A stretch of 64,000 nucleotides of DNA from Quercus robur. Its lineage: Eukaryota; Streptophyta; Magnoliopsida; Fagales; Fagaceae. Made by a program: the position numbers and the translations under genes. Location: NCBI RefSeq assembly GCF_932294415.1, contig NC_065538.1, positions 41,422,843 to 41,486,842 of the forward strand, written 5' to 3'. Of this stretch, positions 653 to 62,416 are shown one piece after another. Positions within the stretch are counted from its first letter, which is position 1. Every line of letters begins with the position of its first letter. Under the pieces are notes generated by a model. That model saw only the letters and a list, made by a program, of their open reading frames with translations. It did no database searches and was not told where the DNA came from.

Positions 653-3119
653 AATACATATAATCTTGTAAATTAAGGGTTTCAAATTAGACATTATAAT
701 TTTCTAGGTTACCAATTAAAAAAAGAAAAAATAAAAAAACCTCTCCCGTGAGCCTCTTGTCTTGTTATAAGACCAATTTTTTCAATAAAAAAAAATAGAA
801 AGTCCAATTTCGGCCAAATAGGAAAAACAAACAAATAAATAATTAAAAAAAAAAAAAAGAACAATTTTCATATTTCATATAGAGTGGGCCGTATAATGTC
901 CATTAATCCATCAGAGTGCCTATGGTTTTGAGGTTTAGCCCCAGCTTGGCTCAGCACCTAGTTACTGGAAACAGAAACAGTAGGCAGTGGCACTATATCG
1001 TACTTACCACATCAACAAAAACCGAAGGCCCTACACCTACACGGGTCTATTACACCAACATAAGCTGCATTATTTGCGACTCTTCTAAGTTCTAATTAAC
1101 CCACCAAAAAGAGCTGTCTTCAAAGCTTTGGGAAATTGAGGCCATCTAAATACCTCCTTGGCCTATCTTCTGCCTATTGGGAAATTGCATCCATACACAT
1201 CTTATTGTCACCTTCAATAATTACCACTTAATCACAAGTTGCCATATTATAAGTATTGGTTTGGGTGTATCTGTAGGTGCAGACTAATAATTATATTAAT
1301 AATTACCCTAAGAATTTCATTCTTCGTAGGTAACTGGGACCACAATAAAGCTTCAGCTTCAACTTAGAGATGGGGGATGTTTAATGGTTATGGTATTAAG
1401 ACCTTTTTATTAGAGCTGGCTAAAACCACCGCCCCTCTCCAATCTCTTGCTACTACTGATAGAGAAGCTAGCTACTCCCTATGGCTGCTGCATCATAATT
1501 AAACTTGTACCACTCTCTTCTAGGCTTGGACCAGGTTGTTAAATGAAGGGATAACTCTAGCTGTATTATGGTCCCACTACATAGCCATAGCCATAGCCAT
1601 AGCCATAGCCATATGCATATGCACGTGAAATGAATCATAGGCGACTAAAATTAACTTAGAAATTAGAACGAATATAAAAAGAAACTCATTGGATTTTTTT
1701 TTTTTTTTTCCACCCGAATCATCCGCACCTTCTGCGGTTGTACTTTGAGTAGAAAGTCTGTAAGCATCTTTCAAACCAACCAGCCTAATCATTTAAGTCT
1801 TCAAGTTCAAACCAACCAATTTAATTATAAATACTTAAATAGTTCCGACTTAACTCGATAAACAATTTTATAATGTTTGTTTGCTAGTCGATTTCAACTC
1901 ATATGGTTTTTGAAATGTGTCAAGATTTCAATTTCATTAATCCTGGATTATTTTGTTATATCTAGTTAATCTTAATGTTTAAAGAAATATTACCAATATA
2001 CTTATACCCACTTTTCATTTTGAAATCGATTGTTTTTAGTTAAATTGTCTTACAACTTAAATAATTTAATTTGTGTTCGACTTTAATTCTTACTAATTAG
2101 GGTGTCATTCATTTAGCCATAATTATAAACTATGCAAAAATATTCTAATCTTCCTTGTTTCTTTTGGTGGCTAGAATATTTTTTATATTTTAGATTTGGA
2201 TTCGGTTAATAGGTGTTATTTGAACATTATTAATAGACAATTTTATTAAAGTTTTGATATCGTAAAAACTATAAAAAAAAAAGTTATTTTTTTAATAAAA
2301 AGTTTTTTAAAATATTTTTAAAATCCATTAACTTTTCCCTTTTTTATAATTCAATAATCAACAATAATTTAAATTTTAGATGTCTAATTAAAAATAAAAT
2401 AAAATTTAGTTACAAAATTAGTTGTAACTTAAGGCTACAACTTTATCTAATAAAATAAACATTACTACATATTTGAAAATCTAACCATTGAATCGCGTGT
2501 TCTTTATATTCTTAATGTACATATTAAATTTTGTGTTAATCGGATATTATTTACCATATTATTTATGAGCTTATATTTTATTCATAATTTTAAACTACGA
2601 AAAATTGCAATTTAAATAATTTATTGATATTATAGTTATTGATTTTTAATTTTTTACAAATTTTACAAGTATGGAAGATATAAGAAGAAAATATAATCTA
2701 ATAGTAAATTTATCAAAATTTACTTCCAATAAAAATAATATTAAATAAAATTATAAATTTAAACGGCAACCAATTTTATAACTAAATTCCCTCCTTTCAA
2801 ATATTAAAAGATATTAACTACTTTAATTACAATCCACTTGACAACCAGAAGACTATTAATACTTTGAACTTAAAAGTCAGTGAAACAAATTGAAAAAAAT
2901 TAATTAAAAAAAAATTATATTTACACACTTGTGTCCCGGACACTGTAGAGTAGGTACAAAAACAATTAGAAGAAAAAAATAGGTGAAAAAAAAATAAGTA
3001 TCAAGCATGGTCATCAAGCACCTCCTGGGTCCCTCCATACTCCATACGCTCTAGCTCAAGAAGTCTCAATCTTCACCGAATTCCAAATCTCCAGTTCTCA
3101 GGTCAACTGATACTGAAAG
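653..3119. other. AT-rich intergenic region, no gene seen
   Basis: This stretch upstream of the Dabb gene is strongly AT-rich, with many A and T runs and stops in all frames. The only structured element I see is a short CATAGC microsatellite near 1580-1611. The last 100-200 bases before 3120 presumably include the promoter and 5' UTR of the downstream gene, but I see no convincing TATA box. Confidence 0.6.
1580..1611. repeat. Hexanucleotide microsatellite (CATAGC)n
   Basis: About five consecutive copies of CATAGC, followed by a degenerate CATATGCATATGC stretch. Read on the minus strand it produces a Met-Ala run in a spurious ORF. Confidence 0.9.
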
Positions 3120-3815
3120 ATGGCATCTCAGTCCGAGTCCGAGTCCGAGGCCATCGAACACATCGTCCTGTTCAAGGTGAAAGACGAGGCCGAACCATCG
3201 AAGGTGAAGGCGTGGCTCGACGCTCTCAACGCCTTGTCCTCCCTCGTCCAAGTGGCACAGCTCACCGCCGCCCCATTAATCCAAACTACCACCACCTCCT
3301 CCTCCGCCACTTCGCTCAACTTCACTCACATCCTCCACAGCCGCTACAACTCCAAGCAAGACCTCAAAGCCTACACTATCCACCCCCGCCACGACAGCGC
3401 CGTCAAAGATCACGGCTTGCACATAGTCGAAGACATCATGGCCTTCGATTGGGTCGCCCCCGATCTTCATCTGGCGGTCACACCCAAACCCAAACCCGGG
3501 TCCGCAATTCGAGTCAGCTTCTTCAAACTAAAGGAAGAAGATGTAAAAAAATCAGAGATACTTGGGGTTTTAAAAGAAACGAAGGATGGTTTGTTGTTGG
3601 GGCAGCATAAACAAATTAGTGAGTTGAGTTATGGAGAGAACTTTTCTACAGAGAGAAGCAGAGGGTACTCGTTAGCTTATCTGGCGGTTTTTCCTGGACA
3701 CACAGAGTTGGAGGATTCGAATGAGGAATTGGGGAAGTTGAAACACAAGTTTACGGATTTTGTCGAGAGTGAGGTCGTCGTCGATTTCCTCATCCCCTCC
3801 TCCTCCTCTGTTTAA
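3120..3815 (+). CDS. Stress-response dimeric A/B-barrel (Dabb) domain protein, two domains
   Basis: Single-exon gene of 231 residues. The first Dabb half (about residues 10-113) starts with EHIVLFKVKDE and contains the typical FTHILHSRY and HPRHDSAVKDH segments. The second half (about 127-225) begins IRVSFFKLKE and contains YSLAYLAVFPGHTEL. This is the tandem-Dabb layout of plant proteins such as Arabidopsis DABB1/UP3 relatives, usually about 200-230 residues, so it looks full length. Plant Dabb proteins are small ferredoxin-fold proteins linked to stress and defence; the substrate is generally unknown. The Met at 3120 precedes a Ser/Glu-rich leader just before the domain, and no better upstream Met exists in frame. 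Codon use changes sharply: C/G-ending codons dominate to about 3535, then A/T-ending codons. No signal peptide or membrane segment is seen. Confidence 0.9.
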   Translation: MASQSESESEAIEHIVLFKVKDEAEPSKVKAWLDALNALSSLVQVAQLTAAPLIQTTTTSSSATSLNFTHILHSRYNSKQDLKAYTIHPRHDSAVKDHGLHIVEDIMAFDWVAPDLHLAVTPKPKPGSAIRVSFFKLKEEDVKKSEILGVLKETKDGLLLGQHKQISELSYGENFSTERSRGYSLAYLAVFPGHTELEDSNEELGKLKHKFTDFVESEVVVDFLIPSSSSV

Positions 3816-4936: not shown

Positions 4937-7900
4937 TTAGTGAACAGGGTTGGGAGGCTGTGGTGGTTGCCCTTGCTGTACAGACCATGGAGGTCGCCTA
5001 TTGTGCTCCTACAAAGAAACAGTTAACAAAATCAGTTTCCAGAATGACCTCCAAAGCAAATAACACATATAAATCACAGACAATTACAATATGATCTTAA
5101 GAAGTCAGTTTCTACAATAACATCTAAATAGAATTAGTTGAAGAGATGATATAATTGTCCAAGGACATCATAATCATTTTTTTCCCTTCAAAAGCATCCT
5201 TTTTAACCTTTTACTTCTTTATTTCCATAAAGAAATCTTTGCTGTTTCAGGTACAAGTTTCAATACATATTGAACAGCTGAGGACAGAGTTAAATATCAA
5301 TTTTTCTTTTCTTTAATCAGTAAGAAAAAGAAGTTCATTGATGAATAGACATGCTGCCTCTCAAAAAGAGAACCCAACAGCTAATATGTGAGTTGAATAG
5401 TGTTCCTTTCCATCAAAATTTTGTAGGTTCCTTTTCCTCCAAATAGTCCACATCATATGTGCCAGTATACATACTCTTATATCTTTGTAATATCAATTTT
5501 TAAAGTGTCTATACATTCAAATGTGTATTTTTTTTTTTAATCAGGAAAATAAGAGAAGGAAACCTGTCTTAAAGTCAAATATTTAGGCCAAGAGCCTTCT
5601 AACTCAAGTGGCATAGCTTGCTCTCTTTTATTAGGAGAACCAAGGTTCGAATCCCCCCCTCCCCATTGTTGTAACTATCTAATTATCAAAGTCACATAAT
5701 TAGAAAACTAAGCCAAATCCTGGTCGGCATGTTAACATTTAACAACCAAACTCTACATTTCACCAACTTTATTTCCACAGAATTTACTTGGCATAATGGG
5801 CATTGATCAATTGGTGTATAAATGTGGTATGTCAGCCACAGTTAGAAATTAATGCTTGCAAAGGAATTTCAATTATAGTCATAAAGGTAATGAGGAATAA
5901 TAGATTTAAAACATATAGGCTACTATATAGTTGAAAGAATGTACTTCACATACTCCAATTTCGGTCACAACAGAGCAAGAGGAACACTTCACTGATGATG
6001 CTCCATGTTGATACATCAGCAATACTTCACAGCTGCCACATTTAACTAGTCCAACCTCATGAGCTGAGAAACAAGGATCAAGTTTTTATAAAAAGGCCTT
6101 GCCATTATGACAGTACACATTGCAAAACAAAAGATTATCTTCACCTAAATCGAACAGAGGTTCTATGAAAAGGCAAAACTAGACATTTAGACAAGAACAG
6201 ACTTGACACTCTGATGCACACATGTAAGTGACAAAAAGATTTACTTGTCATAATAATCTGAAATTTTGTGTCAAATGTTGAACTCAATGACCTTAGGTCC
6301 ACAATTATCTGTGCTGCACCACATATCTAGAGATTAAAGAATCAAGGTTCACAATTTCTTTCACCTTGGTTAGAAGATAATCACAAAACCAAGGTCTGGG
6401 ACTAATTATTTATTTACCTAAAGGCAGAGACAAGAATTTGAATGTACAATTTAGAATAATTAATAGAGACTAAACCATGTTGAGCCTATTTTGAAATAAA
6501 TTAAGACACGTAATTTCTTCATGCAACACATCAAAAAACTTGATAATATTTCAATGCTTTAACTACATATGATTTAAGTTCTACATGTATAAAAACTACA
6601 TAATATAATTTTCCGCCCAGCCTTAATTGGGTTAGTGCCTTTCGGTGCTTTTCAACTTTGACTCCATACTACATATCCAATATATCCACAATGAGGATAT
6701 GCCTGTGCATGTTTTGTGATAGGGAGGCAAAGAGAGGTATTCCACATGATCAACGTAGTCAAAGCCTTGCCCCACTAAGTGAATTTGGTGTCACACCATG
6801 TCAATAGTGCTAGACAAGTAATGTGGGGTTGTTTCACCTAAGTTAGGAGGTGATATCCAAAACCCAATGTGGGTCTATCTATGAAATTCCCAAAAGGCTA
6901 GCTCACAGTAGAATTATTGAGTTATCTGCAAGAAAATCAACGTCTAATACAGAGCTGTCAACAACTCATAATTTCCAAAAGTTTGATCCTTCATATTTGA
7001 AATATAAAATATAATAGAGAAACCTTTAACCTTTTTTTATAAAAACAACAAAACAGTATGAAAAGCTTAACTGCTAATATCTAGGGGGGGGAAATGCATT
7101 TGTTTAAGTACAAGAAAAGAGAGGAGGAACCTTCTAATACAAAATTGCCTGTGTGACAGCACGAGCAATGAACATGTCTTGCCCCTCGAGGATACTTAAG
7201 CAGGTTATGGCAAGTACCACAAACCATTTGAGCCATTTCTGCATCAGAAAACATAGTTCACCAGTTACAAAGACCATTAAGAAATTAATTTACTAATGAA
7301 ATTCAAGAGAGCACCGGTATGGAAAACATCAATTCATCAAAGTCCTAATGGATTTCTAGGTCAAGGACATGGTTCAAAAGCAATAAACATTCATCTATCC
7401 TAATTCCTTCCTGCTGTAATCATCTGAAAACTTTTTCGATGTATAACCAAAAATTTTAATAATGTCATCATCATCTGAAAAGTGAAAACTGCCCCACCGT
7501 GGCAGCTTTGTTTATCACTAATCATTATCATTTTTAGGTTAACATTTTTTTTTAATAAGTTACGCACACATTGAGTCTTAAACCCACAACTTCACCCTCG
7601 ACCTCGCACTTGCAAGGGAGGGAGGTGCTAGTTGAGCTAGAGCCCATTGGCATTCAATTTGATGTGATTCGATACATGAGTTCAAGTTTAAATTCTCTAG
7701 AGAAATTCCAAGTTGAACCCATCTTAACTGGGAAAACAAGAATAAATAATACCATGAAACTTTTTAGAAGATCATTTTTTTGCTCCCCTTCACCCTTCCC
7801 CTTCTGCTTGGACCAAACTCGCCTATCAAAAGAAATTTTCCCTTACACGTGAATATTCCAGTGGAAAACCAAATTAGGACTCAACATTCCAAAACAAGAG

Positions 7901-53605: not shown

Positions 53606-55628
53606 CTTTTAAAAAAACTTATTATATGATGATAGGCATGTGCTTAATCAATTCAAAATGTTTCAATTGTTTTAGTTTATTAATCATTAGTGTAATCCTA
53701 TATTTGATGCTTAAAATAGCTTCCCTTGCCACAGGTGAGAAGAATCATAGAGTGAAACTACTAAACCAAATTTGCTAAAGTTATCATTTTGTGACAGATT
53801 GCCATTTAAACGCAAGATAAGTCATAAATAATGTGATTACATTGCTGCTTCTGGGTAGTTTGTTATAATGCCCTCACTACAGAATGCAAGACTAATGCTG
53901 CCCTTGATTCAGAGCAGAGGCAACATTACAATGCAAATCTCAGTGGCGTTAGCTGCATCAATAAGACATAGAACCTGATCCTCTCTCTCTCTCTCTCTCC
54001 TGGTGCTAATCAATCAAAGCTGCATCTTTCAGAATATCATAAAGAACGACTGCAACACATGCCATAAGGTAAAAACACTCATACCTTAACCCAATAAAAT
54101 GTCAGAAGATCTTGAGGATCATAATTTCATTAGCTATAGTGCATGACTTTGCCTCTTTCTTACATTGTACCGTAATTGTCTTTTCTTTTTTATTTTGGTA
54201 AGAAACCAAAATGTCAACATCAAAAGGATATAATCCCCTTAGTAACAACATATGATGTCAACCATCTTTGGAACAAAAAAAAAAAAAATAGATATGAAGC
54301 CCAATTGCAGGACATACCAAGTTTGTCTAATGTGGTTGCAAGTTTTGCTCTTTCCCATGTTCTCTGCCAAGCACAATTTTAGTAAACAAAATCCATAAAC
54401 TACGGTAAACCTGTGCAGGGCATATAATATTTAAAGACATACTGGTTGAAACAAGAACAAAAAGAGATTAAACATGGATTACAAGGACAATTAGTGCCTT
54501 GACCAAAAACACAAAAATTGCACCTCATTCAATTCAATCTTTTCCACAGTAGTAAATGAATACGTGTAATTTTGCATCTACAATTCCCAATGAACTGACA
54601 GTTTCCTGAGATTGAGCCATATACTATGAAAACAAGAACAAAGTCTGCATCTGTAATTTAACTACTCTTGTTGAAACCACTTATGCTATGGGTGGGGTTG
54701 AGGTCAGACTTGGGCTTAATTCACCTTAGGAAGTGCTTTTGGCCTCTGTTCCGTCTAAACCCCTCATGCATTGGTTCTCCAAGGAAGCACAGACACTTCA
54801 TTAGGGTGCCGAACCCGTGTCATACCCATGTCATACTAGTATCATACCAGCCGTTTCATGTTATAATTTTTCCAAAATTGGTTGTGTAACCATGTCATAT
54901 CCGTGTCCGTGTCTCCTAGGTCCTTAGTAGAGGAGCTAAGATGGTAACACCCAGGTAGGGAAGCCACGGTTGGTCCCCCTCACGCAGAGAACCAAAACAA
55001 CTGTAAGGAACAACTTTGCCATTTTCAATCAACCAAAACATGCACCGAGGACTTTTTAATTGGCTATCTAACAATTAAGCATTTGTCTAAATTTGTTCTC
55101 ATCATGCATTTGCTAAGATAAAGTATAAACCATGAAACTGTACTTAAAAAATTAAATAAATAAATAATTTAACAAGCTAGCTATATTTGACTTTCGGTTG
55201 GACTCAAAACTAAATCAATCCAATTGAAAAACAAAGACATTTTCAACTCTAAACTAAAATTTGAAGTTTCAAATGTAGAGTCAGAGTCATAGCTTACATC
55301 AACTAAAACAGCAAAACCTTAATCTCAAAACTATTTAAGGTTGTTAACATGTAAAATGTAGAGCCATACTTAAAAATAAATAAAAAAGAGTAAAATGTAG
55401 GACCTGAATCATGGGCTTTCCGAGGATTGGAATCAGAGGTTTCCCTTGAAATCGTGAAGAAGCAAAACGAGCTGGTATGATACCAACAACCCGGCTCCGA
55501 TACTTTGCGGTTCGGCGCGTGGATATCACCGCGTAAGCTCCAGCCGCCGCCACTATGGCTGCCCCGGAGAGTAGGCCTTGCACAAGCCATGAACCGGTGG
55601 TGCTAGACGTGGTCGATGTGGGACTCAT
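51365..55628 (-). CDS. CKS: 3-deoxy-manno-octulosonate cytidylyltransferase (CMP-KDO synthetase)
   Basis: Eight exons, 55404-55628, 54318-54363, 53448-53534, 53233-53357, 52639-52778, 52487-52538, 52271-52381 and 51365-51457, join in phase to give 292 residues, close to the roughly 290 of plant enzymes. A short N-terminal hydrophobic segment (about 14-36) is the membrane anchor known in plant CKS. The nucleotidyltransferase core follows: [15 protein letters not shown] (51-65), the ATDDERI segment, [12 protein letters not shown] (about 140-151, Asp/Glu for metal and CTP), and the CMP-KDO synthetase C-terminal part with [10 protein letters not shown] and [12 protein letters not shown]. The enzyme activates KDO as CMP-KDO with CTP. 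In plants this feeds KDO into rhamnogalacturonan II of the pectic wall, and the Arabidopsis enzyme is reported in mitochondria. All motifs look intact. Confidence 0.95.
53571..53601. repeat. (GA)n microsatellite in CKS intron 2
   Basis: About 15 GA dinucleotides just upstream (on the minus strand) of exon 3. A matching (TC)n run lies near 53986-53999 in the same intron. Confidence 0.85.
54650..54960. other. Dispersed-repeat-like segment in CKS intron 1
   Basis: Contains short iterated words such as CCCGTGTCATACC, CCATGTCATACTAG and CCGTGTCCGTGTC, a pattern of degenerate internal repetition typical of an old transposon insertion. Boundaries and family are not clear. Confidence 0.35.
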
Positions 55629-56466
55629 GACGTTTCAGTTGTTGAGACAAAGAGAAGTGGCGCGTGTGGTGATAGTGAGGGCATTCGCGCGTGTTTATAG
55701 CATTGTAAATTGAAAGGAAGCTTCCTAAGGGCGGGAAATCAAACAGTGTCGTTTTCCCACTTTTCTTGTAGCTTCCGCCAAACGGTGCGTTCTGATGATT
55801 TTCTCCCATAAGAAAATGACAATTACTATTATCAAAATTACAACTTTATTAAATTTTCAATTCTAAATTATAAATTTAATTTAAAAATGAAAATTTTAAT
55901 TTATACCCTATTAAATTTTCTTTTTAATATTTTTTATGCTCTGATTGGTTTGGGAGGAAAACAAGAGAAAATTGTAATTTTCTATTATTTGATTCGGGTA
56001 AAAAGGAATAGAGGAAATTGAGTGGATGGACGATAAAGTTTTCTATTTAAAGCCACCATTTGTTTTCTTTCCAAATTGGGGAGGGGAAAGAAAAAAAAAA
56101 CCTAACATGTAAAAAAAACTAAATTACAAATTGTACCTTAAATGTTTTTAAAATTTTTGATTTTGTCCTTAAAGTTTCAAAAGTTTGATCCACTCTCCAA
56201 ACATCAGCTATCGTTTGACAAATTTTTTTTTGTCTATTTGTCATTAAAGTGGTTGTTAACATCACTCTATCTCAAAGTAAAATAGTTTTAATGCATTAAA
56301 ACTATGCAATTTTTGCTATGTCGGTAAAAAAAAAGTATTTACCACTTTTTTTTTTTTTTTTGCATTTTTCTCTCATTTTTATTTATTTATTTACACTTTA
56401 CTTTTCTCTCTTCCTATCTCATATCTCACTCTCTTACATTAGATTACACTTTCTCCACCTCTCATT
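55629..56466. promoter_or_regulatory. Upstream region of the CMP-KDO synthetase gene
   Basis: The 5' UTR and promoter of the minus-strand CKS gene should lie in the first few hundred bases. The distal part is AT-rich with a T run near 56347-56361. No gene is seen. The left copy of the LINE target-site duplication lies at 56467-56479. Confidence 0.5.
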
Positions 56467-56479
56467 ACCATTTGTGATC

Positions 56480-57226
56480 GCATGTGGTGAATGTGGTATG
56501 CTAGGAGTACTGGGGTCAGGATGCTCTGAGTGAGAAGGGTTAAGAAGTACCTGTTGATGTGTTTGGTCCATATGTCCAAAGCGAACTTGGGTGGTCCATC
56601 TCTTCCTTCGATTGTGATAGGCCCTGAGCTCATTTGTGAATTGGGGTTGTAAGGCATCAAATCTATATTGCACTTGTTGCAACTCTTGTATGCGTTGCCT
56701 CTGTCTGAATAGCATCAGTTCCACCTCTTCCATGTTATGGGTGCATTGGCCACGTGTATGACCAATGAGGCCACATCTAGTACAAAGCTTGTGGACTCTT
56801 TCATAACGACATTGAATCCAGATTCTAGCACCATCATCCAATCTGAGCATGAAACCAGCTATCACTGGTAACCAAGGATTGATTTTGAACTTCACTCTCA
56901 TAAATCGTATGTTCCTTGGAATCTTGTCTTCCCAATCTACTCTTTCCACTATTCCCATTAACTGACCCATTTTTTAACCTAATTCTGGGTACCAGACAGT
57001 GGCTCCAGGAGTCTCTCTATGTTGCTAAATCTTCAAGATCAGGCTCTACCACAGGACCATGTCTTGCAAAAGGAACTTCATCCTCTTCTCTAGGTAAAAG
57101 GTCTAATTCTAGTTCTCCAGCAAAAAGATCAGAGCTAATGTCTGAACTACTACTATCAGTCCAACCAACTTCTCTAGGAACTATGTGATCATCCATATTG
57201 GAAAGGAAGACTAGTAGCAGTTGCAT
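56480..57226 (-). pseudogene. LINE ORF1 fragment (DUF4283-like / CCHC zinc knuckle), inverted
   Basis: The minus strand reads from a Met at about 57196 (MDDHIVPREVGWT) through an acidic Ser/Asp-rich stretch. After stops near 57017 and 56975 it continues from 56970 with a segment typical of plant LINE and retroelement gag-like ORF1 proteins. A CCHC-type knuckle, CTRCGLIGHTRGQC, lies at about 56743-56784. ORF1 proteins of this type bind the element RNA. The fragment is broken by stops and probably lacks an internal part. The open frame running past 56480 into the flank does so by chance. Confidence 0.8.
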
Positions 57227-57479
57227 GCACAGTGAGTACAGTGTAGTACAACGACAACTAGGTACTCTAAAGGACGCTGAATAGTCAGAGGGTTAGAGAA
57301 TATCATCATAGCCTCACTGCATTCAGCTATACACTTGTTAAACCTTAATCACAGTAGGCTGAACCCATTTAAAACAATGCCCATTTGAAACAATACACTT
57401 GTTCCCCCCTACCCCAACAAACTCTTTGAACTCAGAGGACCCTAGAACAATCCCAAACTCAGATGACTTAGAATCACAC

Positions 57480-58210
57480 ATTGTGCATGATAACCCTACA
57501 CCCCCACCCCAGGATTCAATGGACCTGGATTGAAGGTAATGGACCTTATATTACTAATGGACAGAGCACTAGGCAACACTTTGAAGCATCGGATATAGAC
57601 AGTGATACCACAACAATCATGTTTAATCTAGAAAATTTGAATGAAGATAGACCTGAGGTCCAATGCCAGAGATGGGATAAGGGTTGCATACCTGAGTCCC
57701 CTGACTTCTACATAGAGTTGTTGGTATAGAGAGTTAATAGAGGGAGATTCAGATTTGAATTAGGAGACTCTAGTGATGGGCCTAGACTAATTAACCCCCA
57801 AGAAGAGCAAAATGGGCTTGTTCAACCTAACCCATTAGAAAACCCATTACATACTACCCAATTGAACAATAAATGAGCAAATGAAAGAAATCTAGACCCC
57901 TTTGAACTTCTTACCTTAGGACCTGGCCCTTCTTTATCTAATACAAACCTACTTGCCTCTATTTTAACATCAAACTTTTGGTGTAATGAAGGTGGGGGGA
58001 CACTTTGGCTGGAGACACATCAAGACTGAGCTCGAGAAAAAGAATCAGGAAGGAAATAGGAAAATTTGGGAGAAACAATAAACAGAAGTTGCTATGTAGT
58101 TTTTTTGAAAGGGAAGGCACCACTTCCAAGACATTTCTGATGTATTTGAACATAGGACATCTTCTAATGGTGAGAGAGCTAAAGGGTTTAGCTAGGGAAG
58201 CTGGCCTATA
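57480..58210 (+). pseudogene. Probable ORF1 C-terminal part / ORF1-ORF2 linker of the LINE
   Basis: Forward sequence with several short open frames rich in Asn, Pro, Glu and then Lys/Arg (RLSSRKRIRKEIGKF). Compositionally it resembles the disordered C-terminal part of plant LINE ORF1. It is broken by many stops, and its assignment rests on position before the endonuclease. Confidence 0.45.
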
Positions 58211-58228
58211 ATAGCTTCCCCAGCAGCC

Positions 58229-58920
58229 ATGAGGGTCCTAAGTTGGAATTGTAGAGAGTTGGGCACCCCCTCTACAGTTCTGCAATGTCAAAAAAAGGCC
58301 AGGGAGTATAAGCCTAATATTATGTTTTTAATGGAAACAAAATTAGCAAAAGACAAAGGAGCCGCAATTTTGGAGAAATGTGGTTTTTGGCATGGCTGGG
58401 AGGTTCCTCGAGAAGGCATAAGTGGTGGTCTGCTGCTAGGATGGGTGGGGAATCTAAGCTTAAGCATTTTGTACAACTCAAAACATCTCCTGCATGCTGA
58501 TCTCAATGACAAGAAAGGTACCCCTTTATCCGTTTCTTTTGTATATGGACATCCAAATCATACTAAAAGAGAGGAAGTGTGGACTGAATTAAGGAATATT
58601 AGGAATTTAGTTCACAAACACTGGGTATGTATAGGGGATTTCAACCAAATCTTATCTCAAGAAGATAAATTTGGTTTTAGTTACAGGAAAATAGAAGGTG
58701 CAGAGGTGTTTAGACAAACTCTGTTTGATTTGGGTCTTTGTGATCTCCAAGCAAAAGGGCAACACTTTACTTGGATGAATGGTCATGGAGAAGAATCTTT
58801 TGTCATGGACAGACTAGATAGAGCCTTTGCCATAGTGGATTGGATCACTTCAAATCCATAATATGCTCGAAGGAACCTTCCTATCCTAAGATCTGATCAT
58901 GGTCATATTATCCAAGATTT
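58229..58920 (+). pseudogene. LINE ORF2 endonuclease domain (exo_endo_phos family), broken
   Basis: Starts MRVLSWNCRELG, the usual beginning of plant LINE ORF2. Endonuclease motifs appear in order: WNCR, LMETK (metal-binding Glu), GDFNQIL (catalytic Asp/Asn), DRLDRAF and, after an in-frame TAA at 58859-58861, LRSDHGHI (catalytic His). APE-type endonucleases nick the target to prime reverse transcription. The single stop between DRLDRAF and the SDH motif inactivates the domain. Confidence 0.9.
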
Positions 58921-61275
58921 TGAGTTTCAACAACCCTTTAGGAAAAGACCCTTCAGATTTGAAAAAATCTGGTTAACTTATGATGGCTATAAAACTCTGA
59001 TTCAGAATGCTTGGAGTGTTTACTCTCAGGGATCTAGAGCTTTTCAGCTTCAACAGAAGCTAAAAAAATGTTAGGAAGGAGCTTCATGGTTGGAATAAAA
59101 ATGTATTTGGAAAGGTGGACAAGGAGATAAGAGAAAAACAGAAGACTTTGCAAGATTTACAAGACTCAATCAAGTCTATATAAGATATTAGAATGGAGAG
59201 AGAGCTTAAGGAGAATATTGAAAATCTGATGGAAAAGGAAGAATTTATGTGAGCTCAAAAGGCTAGAAGTACTTGGATTATCCAGGGTGACAAAAATACA
59301 AAATTCTTCCAAACTCTAGTCAAACAAAGGAGAGCTAAGAATAGGATTTTGCAAATTAGGACAGCTGATGGGAGCATATTAGAAGAGTTAGGAGATATTG
59401 AGTACTACATACTAAAGCATTTCAAAAATCAATATAGTGAAACAAGTACAAAATCAGTACAAGATCTAATGAAAGAATTGGAAAGCCTTGAAATTCCTAA
59501 GCTTGATTATGCCCAGAGAATTGATCTAGATAGGCTAGTGTCTAATGAGGAGATTGAAATGGCAGTTTTCCATCTAGGGCCCCAAAAATCCCTTGGTCCA
59601 GATGGGATACTAGTCTTTTTCTATCAAGAATTATAGAGCATAGTATGGGCCAAATATCTTTAACTATGTCCATGCCTTTTTCCACTTAGGTACAGTTCTA
59701 AAATCTCTCAATCAGACATATATTGCTCTTATTCCTAAAACCAAAACCCTAGAAGAGGTAGCTCACTTTAGGCCCATCAGTCTTTGTAATGTCACCTACA
59801 AAATCATCTCAAAAATTTTGTTATCTAAGCTTAAACCCTTTATGGATACTCTTAGTACTCCTTACCAAAATGCTTTTATTGAAGGTAGGAACATTATAGA
59901 CAACATTCTCTTGGCACATGAGATTTTTGATATGCTAGGGAAAAAGAAGCATCATAAGATAGGATATGGTGCTTTGAAAATTGACATGTCTAAGGCTTAT
60001 GATAGAGTCAACTGGAACTTTCTTAAGGCTGTTCTCCTTTCCATGAATTTTAGTGACAAATGGATTGATTGGATTATGGAATGTGTGACTTCTGTTCAAT
60101 ATTCTTTGCTTATCAATGGTAGCCCAACTAAAGCTTTCTTTTCTTCTAGAGGTCTTAGACAAGGAAACCTTATCTCTCCTTATCTTTTTCTTTTCTATGC
60201 TAATATCTTATCCATTGCCCTCTCTAAGGATGAGAATCAAAAAAAGATCAAAGGAATCATAGTAGGCAAAAATGACATACCCTTCACCTACCTACTCTTT
60301 ATTGACGATTCTTTCTTTTTCTTCAAAATTGACAAGACAACCCCAACTAACCTAAAGGATACTATTCTTTGGTATTGTGCAGTGTCTGGTCAGTGCATCA
60401 ATTTTAGTAAACCTGACTTGTTTTGTTCACCTAACACTCCTCAGGAGGATAAGGAGCCCCTTGCTCTCTCTCTTCAAGTTAACCTTATTCTTAAACCCAG
60501 CAAGTATTTAGGGATAAACTTCAAACTAAGGGGTAAGAGGGTAGCTGATTTTTAGGATATCATAGATAAAGTTCAAGGAAAGCTTCAAGGTTGGAAGGCC
60601 AAACTCTTATCTCAGGCTAGTAGGACTACTTTGATAGTTTATGTGCTTCAAGCAATGCCTTTGTACATTTTTTCTTGTTTCAATGTTCTTGAAGCAACAT
60701 GTAACAAGCTTAATGCTATAGCTAGATCTTTTTGGTGGGGACATGAGGTTGGAAGTAGAAAACTTCACTTGATCAAGTGGGACACCATTTGCCAACCAAG
60801 AAACATAGAGGGACTAGGTCTGAAAAATTTTAAAATCATCAACCAAGCTTTGTTAGCTAAGCAATATTGGAGATTACAACAATCCCCAAATTCCCTTCTC
60901 GCTAAAACATACAAAGCTAAATATTTCCCTAGGACCACCCTAAAAGATCATAAGACTAAACCTCATCACTCATGGATCTGGAGAAATATGGCTAATCCAA
61001 GTCTAGCCTCCTTGAAAGAGGGTCATTGGGTGATTGGGGATGGTCATCAAATTCCCCTCACTCACCTAGACTGGTTTAAATGCTCAAATCATAATCTAAT
61101 AAGAAACAACCTTCTTGGAGGTACAGTTGCAGATCTCATTAATCAGAACAAAAGAACTTGGAATCATACTTTAATTAGGAAATTATACCAGCCTCACATT
61201 AGTAAGGAAATCATGCAGCTTCATATTCCTAGAACCTTGGGCCTGGAAGACAAGCTCTTATGGAGACACTTTTAA
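58921..61275 (+). pseudogene. LINE ORF2 reverse transcriptase region, broken into pieces
   Basis: Non-LTR RT blocks follow in order across several frames and stops. GPDGILVFFYQ lies near 59600, HFRPISLCNVTYK near 59770, then IEGRNIIDNILLAHE, KIDMSKAYDRVNW (catalytic Asp) and GLRQGNLISPYLF. The active-site motif reads FIDD, where plant LINEs usually have FADD, near 60302. Uninterrupted pieces are 59349-59636, 59818-60555 and 60631-61275. At least six stops or frameshifts rule out function. The part after 60631 corresponds to the thumb and connection region. Confidence 0.9.
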
Positions 61276-61379
61276 CTCATGAGAATATAAGGTCAGCAAA
61301 GCTTAGTCAATGATTCATCAAAAACATTACTCTTCAATGGGGCAAGAAGAAAGAAGACATGTATTACCCCATATAGTGT

Positions 61380-62323
61380 GGAAGCTTCTCTGAAAGTAGA
61401 ACTCCCCTATAAAATTTTGACCTTTATTTGGAAAAATCTTGCATGGGAGCCTTCCTATTTTTGAGACTCTAAATAAGAGAGGTATAAGAACCACTAACCT
61501 TTGCCTTATGTGTAATGAGGAGGAAGAATCAATAGACCATCTGTTCTTGTACTGCCCTTTTGCAAGAGGTATCTGGCATGGCTCCAATCTAGAAGTCAGA
61601 ACCTTAAATTTAATCCATAACTTAGTTGATTTCTAGTTGTCATCTTCCATTCCACATAATGTCAACAGGGACAAGGATAGAATGTTTTTCCTTCAATCCC
61701 TCTTCACTATACTATGGGCTATCTGGAACCAGTGAAACAAGGTTCTTCATCAAGGTAAATTGCCAAACCCAATGGAAGTTATGCTAATAGCTCAATCTCT
61801 TGCTTACAGGTATAGGGAAGCATTCCAAAAAGATCAACCTTAGCATCCTAAATTTTCAAATCATCCTCACTAGACACCTACTAACTAGGGATGGCAAGTC
61901 ATCATCAAGGTAGCAGCTTTCAGAAATAGGAAAACTAAAAGGAGTGGTTGGGCTTATGCAGTGATAACAATGGATGGTGCTGTTATTCTTAAGGGTGGGG
62001 AGAGCAATGGAACGAAATCATCTTCTCAGTCATTTCAGGAAGTTGTGAAGGAGGCTATTTTCAAGTCCAAGGAGCTAGGATTCTCAAAAATGTTAATTCT
62101 CTGCAACACCAAGAGGCTTGTGCAAATTTGCAATCAAAGGAGAAACCCAACTTGGCTTGAGCAGATCATCATCTCAGATTTGGTCCATCTTCAGCAACAG
62201 GGCCTGATCATTACTTCCCTTTTTGTTCCTAAGGAAGTTATTGCAGATATTTTGTATTTGGCCCATATCACTACTTGTTTCCCAGTCCATTACTGTAGGC
62301 TAAGGCCAGACTTATCTTTATAG
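61380..62323 (+). pseudogene. LINE ORF2 zf-RVT and RNase H (RVT_3-type) remnants
   Basis: A zf-RVT-like cysteine/histidine segment (CLMCNEEEESIDHLF followed by YCPF) lies near 61500-61570. After stops, an RNase H-like segment runs from about 61950 to a stop at 62323, with GWAYAVITMDGAV, EAIFKSKELGF and a late HITTCFP region. The first catalytic Asp position of RNase H is not clear. The 3' UTR and A-rich tail follow. Confidence 0.75.
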
Positions 62324-62416
62324 ACTTTGTCTTAACTACTTTTCACTTAATGAATGAATGATGATTATTTGGTATCCAAAAAAAAGAAAAGAAAAAAAAA
62401 AAAACCATTTGTGATC

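Follow-up and report, generated by a model that had tools for sequence, protein, structure and literature searches.

Structure of the insertion

The stretch of DNA analysed here, called the window throughout, comprises 64,000 nucleotides of Quercus robur (contig NC_065538.1) and contains, close to its right end, a long interspersed nuclear element (LINE) of the plant L1 type whose front is inverted relative to the remainder. An earlier note on this DNA had described it as a single unit flanked by one 13-base word and had interpreted it as a twin-primed LINE, with an inverted first open reading frame (ORF1) and a forward ORF2 enclosed by one target-site duplication. The word, ACCATTTGTGATC, is indeed present as two exact copies abutting the LINE directly at both edges. 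Even when one mismatch was allowed, it occurred in the window only at 56467-56479 and 62404-62416, and two matches were found in none of 100 shuffles. Measured from both insert edges, the anchored match is 13 bp long, a length reached by 8 of 2,000,000 random anchored pairs drawn within the window (pairs less than 40 bp apart were skipped). The duplication length is best given as 12-13 bp, because the first A of the 13-mer may be part of the tail. At its 3′ end, the unit reads TTTGGTATC followed by the A tail (Table 1), an ending shared by several relatives, and 5.9 kb of the element have been kept, compared with 6.7 kb for the relative L009.

The zinc-knuckle part of ORF1 had been assigned to the minus strand, and an endonuclease, reverse transcriptase (RT) and RNase H to the plus strand. 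The zinc knuckle and the start of ORF1, together with some of the 5′ leader, are on the minus strand as described; ORF1 is, however, split, and its C-terminal part lies on the plus strand, by translation to roughly 58060. Endonuclease, RT and zf-RVT were all recognized in ORF2, as in plant L1-type LINEs, but RNase H was not recognized in the window copy, neither by a Pfam match nor among the PDB sequence matches. In relatives, RVT_3 matches were obtained with E values of 0.00057 (L009), 0.0054 (L022) and 0.11 (L014), all below the curated cut-off, and L012 gave no match; RNase H in this element is weakly supported. A C-terminal RNase H is present in part of the plant LINE lineages. Plant L1-type ORF1 typically contains DUF4283 and zf-CCHC_4, of which DUF4283 was not recognized in the window copy; it was found beside the zinc knuckle in the relatives L014 and L016.

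Table 1. Features of the 5′-inverted LINE in the window and of the inverted piece of L016 (last line, positions within L016).
Feature	Position	Strand	Evidence
Left copy of target-site duplication, ACCATTTGTGATC	56467-56479	+	Exact match to right copy; its 3′ end would be the second primer
Inverted LINE front: part of 5′ leader, ORF1 start, zinc knuckle, linker	56480-57300	-	L017 1098-2213 minus 290 bp; 90-91% identity
ORF1 zinc knuckle (zf-CCHC_4), residues 43-77 in the reading that starts at 56970	56740-56844	-	Pfam PF14392, E 8e-8
290-bp deletion relative to L017, removing most of the DUF4283 part of ORF1	56993-56995	-	Alignments; short shared bases, no GT-AG borders
ATG opening the ORF1 reading MDDHIVPREVGWTD	57194-57196	-	Sequence, translation
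Inversion junction, 2-bp overlap (AA)	57299-57300		Joins L017 1098 to L017 2242
Forward LINE part: C-terminal part of ORF1, ORF2, 3′ end TTTGGTATC	57299-62377	+	Alignment to L017, translation, ends of relatives
72-bp deletion relative to L017, downstream of inversion junction	57515-57516	+	Alignments
ORF2 start and endonuclease domain, stop after 58858	58229-58858	+	PF03372, E 1.7e-6; translation
Reverse transcriptase domain, frame different from endonuclease	59644-60552	+	PF00078 (RVT_1), E 8.4e-29; translation
zf-RVT domain	61421-61633	+	PF13966, E 4.1e-13
Region homologous to the weak RNase H-like (RVT_3) match of L009	61889-62320	+	69% amino acid identity to L009
Interrupted A tail	62378-62403	+	Sequence; similar ends in relatives
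Right copy of target-site duplication, ACCATTTGTGATC	62404-62416	+	Exact match to left copy
L016 inverted piece region and its forward counterpart	1668-1808 and 7146-7269	Reverse (element sense)	Alignment

Breakpoints and common origin of the two parts

The genome assembly (785.7 Mb, 42 contigs) was searched for relatives; the RT search yielded 130 scored matches, and 20 stretches were fetched. The closest fetched relative having the front of the element, L017 (G000:C4:16265222-16273758), is ∼90% identical and collinear, and it ranks first, after the window itself, when the genome is searched with the element front. On the minus strand, window 57300 to 56993 corresponds to L017 1098-1406 and window 56995 to 56480 to L017 1697-2213; on the plus strand, window 57299-57516 corresponds to L017 2242-2458 and window 57515-60719 to L017 2531-5704. 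The inverted part stops exactly at the duplication, and the forward part restarts 28 nt further on, with 28 nt of L017 lost. The breakpoint, expected earlier between about 57227 and 57480, maps to 57299/57300; as to the microhomology or small deletion to be looked for there, the AA overlap, which may be due to chance, and the 28-nt loss relative to L017 were found. Among five genome matches, the inner junction was found whole only in the window, while the L017 locus matches its halves on opposite strands.

Divergence from L017 was 74 of 821 sites (9.0%) for the inverted part and 350 of 3383 (10.3%) for the forward part (Fisher P 0.27, alignment columns with gaps being excluded from the comparison). 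Because both parts are equally diverged from L017, their derivation from one element is supported by the alignments. If, instead, two RNAs or two events had been involved, placing a separate ORF1 fragment beside a truncated LINE by dual priming or template switching, breakpoints only 28 nt apart on an element of more than 6 kb would not be expected, and neither would equal divergence of both parts. In addition, there is no poly-T at the target edge of the inverted part, no separate duplication around it (the longest word common to its two ends has 7 bases), and no sequence common to the inverted and forward parts was found. Dual priming has been proposed for primate L1 (in a passage of PMC2837659), and the LINE L016 from the same genome (see below) contains an inverted piece that is hard to obtain from a single RNA without strand displacement; nevertheless, a two-RNA origin is extremely improbable here. 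Separate insertion of two elements, named in the earlier note as a refuting case, is unsupported on the same grounds.

Could the front have been inverted after an ordinary 5′-truncated copy had inserted, by breakage and rejoining with loss of 28 nt? The same two blocks would be expected, and the 290-bp and 72-bp deletions (Table 1) testify to rearrangement of this copy or of its source. This requires, however, that one break hit the very boundary of duplication and element without leaving a single extra base. Among the 25 of 32 inverted-repeat pairs listed, not one combines an arm at 56480 with an arm at 57300. The A tail can pair with a T-run at 56346-56369, but an exchange between these two would flip the complete element. 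Later inversion would also leave the target match at the outer junction (see below) unexplained, and it is considered very unlikely. For the two deletions themselves, RNA splicing was rejected because no GT-AG borders fit; they look like short-homology deletions, which may have occurred in this copy or already in its source RNA.

Orientation of ORF1 in the LINE family

ORF1 lies on the same strand as the nearest endonuclease or RT within 5 kb at 27 of 28 loci, the window being the only exception. These 28 are the loci with such a match among 34 ORF1 loci obtained after merging fragments, and the survey drew on 130 of 130 RT matches, 43 of 43 ORF1 matches and 82 of 151 endonuclease matches, the other 69 being ≤39% identical or outside the matches listed; pairing nearest neighbours, it is blind to short inversions such as that of L016. 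Endonuclease and RT are on the same strand in all 57 pairs. Among 20 loci fetched with the element front (some overlapping), only the window's own has LINE sequence on both strands, and the other 19 (15 distinct places) have it on one strand only. By tblastn of the 20 RT-fetched loci, ORF1 was on the RT strand in nine, on the opposite strand in one (L013), and not found in ten. L013 was rejected as a second inverted copy: its ORF1-like piece is 26-28% identical to ORF1 of L014 and L016, with the LINE ∼2.8 kb off. The piece belongs to another family, and the LINE of L013 itself is truncated.

The relatives contain ORF1 before ORF2, the latter with endonuclease, RT and zf-RVT, and L009 is full-length and collinear, with a duplication of its own (CACTTACCATGG). 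For the loci tested, the other refuting case named beforehand, a family in which ORF1 is normally reversed, is thus excluded, and a misassembly would hardly place the duplication exactly at the two edges of the element; the probability that either accounts for the inversion is negligible.

Probable twin priming and a putative internal priming site

Very probably, the insertion arose in a single twin-priming event from an ordinary plant LINE RNA in which ORF1 and ORF2 share a strand. This is by far the best explanation; it is well supported and invokes a known mechanism, and the interpretation offered in the earlier note is supported by the anatomy, the breakpoints, the divergence and the collinear relatives. 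From the anatomy, the L017 breakpoints, the equal divergence, the orientation of the relatives and the unique junction, we infer the source RNA and the following order of events. The endonuclease would have cut the bottom strand at ...GGT/AATGAG, and copying of the A tail would have begun at that nick. A second nick, 13 bp away in the top strand, would have exposed the 3′ end ...TTGTGATC, which would have annealed to the same RNA within ORF1, at the counterpart of L017 2214-2221, and served as primer for a second complementary DNA (cDNA). This second cDNA would have run toward the 5′ end of the RNA and halted about 320-375 nt before the 5′ end of the family, and the first would have halted at L017 2242, ∼20 nt short of the annealed primer. 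Joining of the two cDNAs at the 2-bp match and filling of the gaps would yield one duplication, an inverted front and a forward rest. That the second cDNA reached the 5′ end of the RNA was rejected, as the sequence common to L009, L011 and L017 extends far beyond L017 1098 on the upstream side (in L009 and L011 it begins at about L017 777, and the edge of L009 is ∼54 nt further out).

Read outward, the target at the outer junction (GATCACAA) matches L017 (AAGCACAA) at six of eight bases, CACAA being unbroken. Equal or better matches to the target exist at 31 of 4927 L017 positions, the priming site included, and the chance of such a match is 0.8% against window DNA and 1.3% by a run-extension score (P 0.006-0.013 overall). 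Pairing of the target end with the RNA at an internal priming site is thus suggestive, and only suggestive, because these measures were chosen after the alignment had been seen and because the more distant relatives L009, L011 and L020 match the target at only three to four of eight bases. These weaker matches also count against twin priming, as do several other observations: the 3′-terminal base of the target does not match L017, the AA overlap at the inner junction may be due to chance, twin priming leaves the additional 290-bp and 72-bp deletions unaccounted for, and neither an empty site nor a second copy of the flanks that reaches the insertion turned up in the one assembly searched. Under a single insertion, the pre-insertion allele would be expected to read CTCATTACCATTTGTGATCTAACATT, with one 13-mer.

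Age of the insertion and its flanks

Changes private to the window amount to 4.1-4.5% (three outgroups, alignment columns with gaps excluded), which is an upper limit for change since insertion. At this age, the chance that both 13-mers are still intact is about 0.3. That the duplication is still perfect despite the age of the copy had been regarded as noteworthy; since ∼4% private change leaves the pair intact about one time in three, it is unremarkable.

The right flank has one other genome match (37 bp) and the left flank 27, of which 26 are in the outer part (about 56110-56240) and one corresponds to 56283-56352; none reaches the insertion. Window 56110-56240 is a dispersed repeat, its 26 other genome matches being 70-88% identical. 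Of inverted repeats that could mark the ends of a host transposon here, only one weak match was seen, 40 bp long at 73% identity, in the right flank. No other LINE copies were found within the window, where protein matches were at chance level only (E 0.34-0.89), and no RT relatives were confirmed in viral and genome contig collections, as expected for a plant element. The LINE is located about 0.8 kb upstream of a first exon-like reading of a cytidylyltransferase (55344-55634, minus strand; CTP_transf_3, E 2.2e-9), which is presumably a plant CMP-KDO synthetase.

A second 5′-inverted LINE in the same genome

L016 (G000:C2:3760432-3769331) consists of a duplication (ACAAGTGGGCA), two extra bases, a 124-bp inverted piece, a forward element starting at about 1805-1808, and an A tail. 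It resembles the window in having a duplication, an inverted piece, a forward element and an A tail, and differs in that the inverted piece is just 124 bp long and stems from the 3′ part of ORF2, wholly inside the forward cDNA: 123 of its 124 bases are identical to the element's own ORF2 3′ part, which also remains in forward orientation. L016 could have come from a single RNA only if the first RT displaced the short cDNA made second; failing that, two RNAs would be required. We tentatively propose, while considering it somewhat doubtful, that the L1-type LINEs of this plant twin-prime in two geometries. In that of the window, the second cDNA would be primed just ahead of the first, which stops ∼20 nt short of it; in that of L016, a second cDNA of 124 nt, primed in the ORF2 3′ part, would be overrun by the first (through strand displacement or on a second RNA). 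Long inversions of the window type may at the same time be rarer than in mammals, with one among 28 ORF1-bearing loci, a coarse and biased count. If this were true, the doubled segment of L016 would date its insertion as pairs of long terminal repeats (LTRs) date LTR elements, by an internal clock.

Comparison with known systems

Twin-primed (5′-inverted) human L1 insertions were reportedly described by Ostertag and Kazazian in 2001. These and the window have in common one duplication enclosing a 5′ segment in inverted and a 3′ segment in forward orientation, the latter with an A tail, as well as a short gap between the cDNAs, a small overlap at the inner junction (in the window, 2 bp that may be due to chance) and a 13-bp duplication. 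Unlike human L1, the window contains a plant LINE with a zinc-knuckle ORF1, in an old and decayed copy that has kept most of the element. According to a passage of PMC2912911, 5′ inversion affects 639 of the 2068 L1 insertions with duplications that are specific to the human or chimpanzee lineage (30.9%), compared with one of 28 ORF1 loci here, plus L016, which is outside those 28. Passages of a long-read L1 study (PMC12016303) give inversion frequencies of 18.4% (germline) and 21.9% (somatic), a median duplication of 13 bp, and cDNA ends within 20 bp of each other in 132 of 287 inverted insertions (46%); the 13-bp duplication and the 28-nt gap of the window (∼20 nt when the annealed stretch is counted) fit this human benchmark.

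With plant L1-type LINEs, for example, the L1-like families of maize as covered in a passage of PMC2774510, the window shares the A tail and the target duplication; unlike them, its front is inverted, most of DUF4283 is lost, and the frames are broken. No plant case of twin priming surfaced in the literature searched, in which papers were judged by title and most subscription journals are not covered, and passages of PMC2774510 (maize) and PMC3747384 contain no LINE inversion; rarity of twin-primed LINEs in plants is unproven. The window, with breakpoints at base level and relatives from the same genome, indicates that the twin-priming accident of mammalian L1 also befalls LINEs of a plant; this suggests that second-strand nicking and first-strand synthesis follow the same order in both. 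The window leaves the mechanism as understood unchanged. Such copies will be overlooked or wrongly labelled by annotation that takes ORF1 and ORF2 to share a strand.

Further observations on the relatives

L010 (G000:C37:18445500-18454390), a ∼86% identical relative, is interrupted by ∼1.07 kb at 2250-3340, and the flanking alignments overlap by 5-9 bp; the picture resembles a nested insertion that made a duplication of its own. L011 and L018 (G000:C35:35185400-35198862), together with further ORF1 matches at C35:35234939-35252113, are copies of the subfamily within ∼67 kb, two of which are interrupted in the RT region in a similar way, by ∼0.7 kb; this suggests local duplication of one copy. 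A distinct LINE group (endonuclease matches of 33-40% and RT matches of 42-47% identity) coexists with the decayed subfamily of the window; many of its members have uninterrupted frames of 1366-1385 residues and may therefore be younger.

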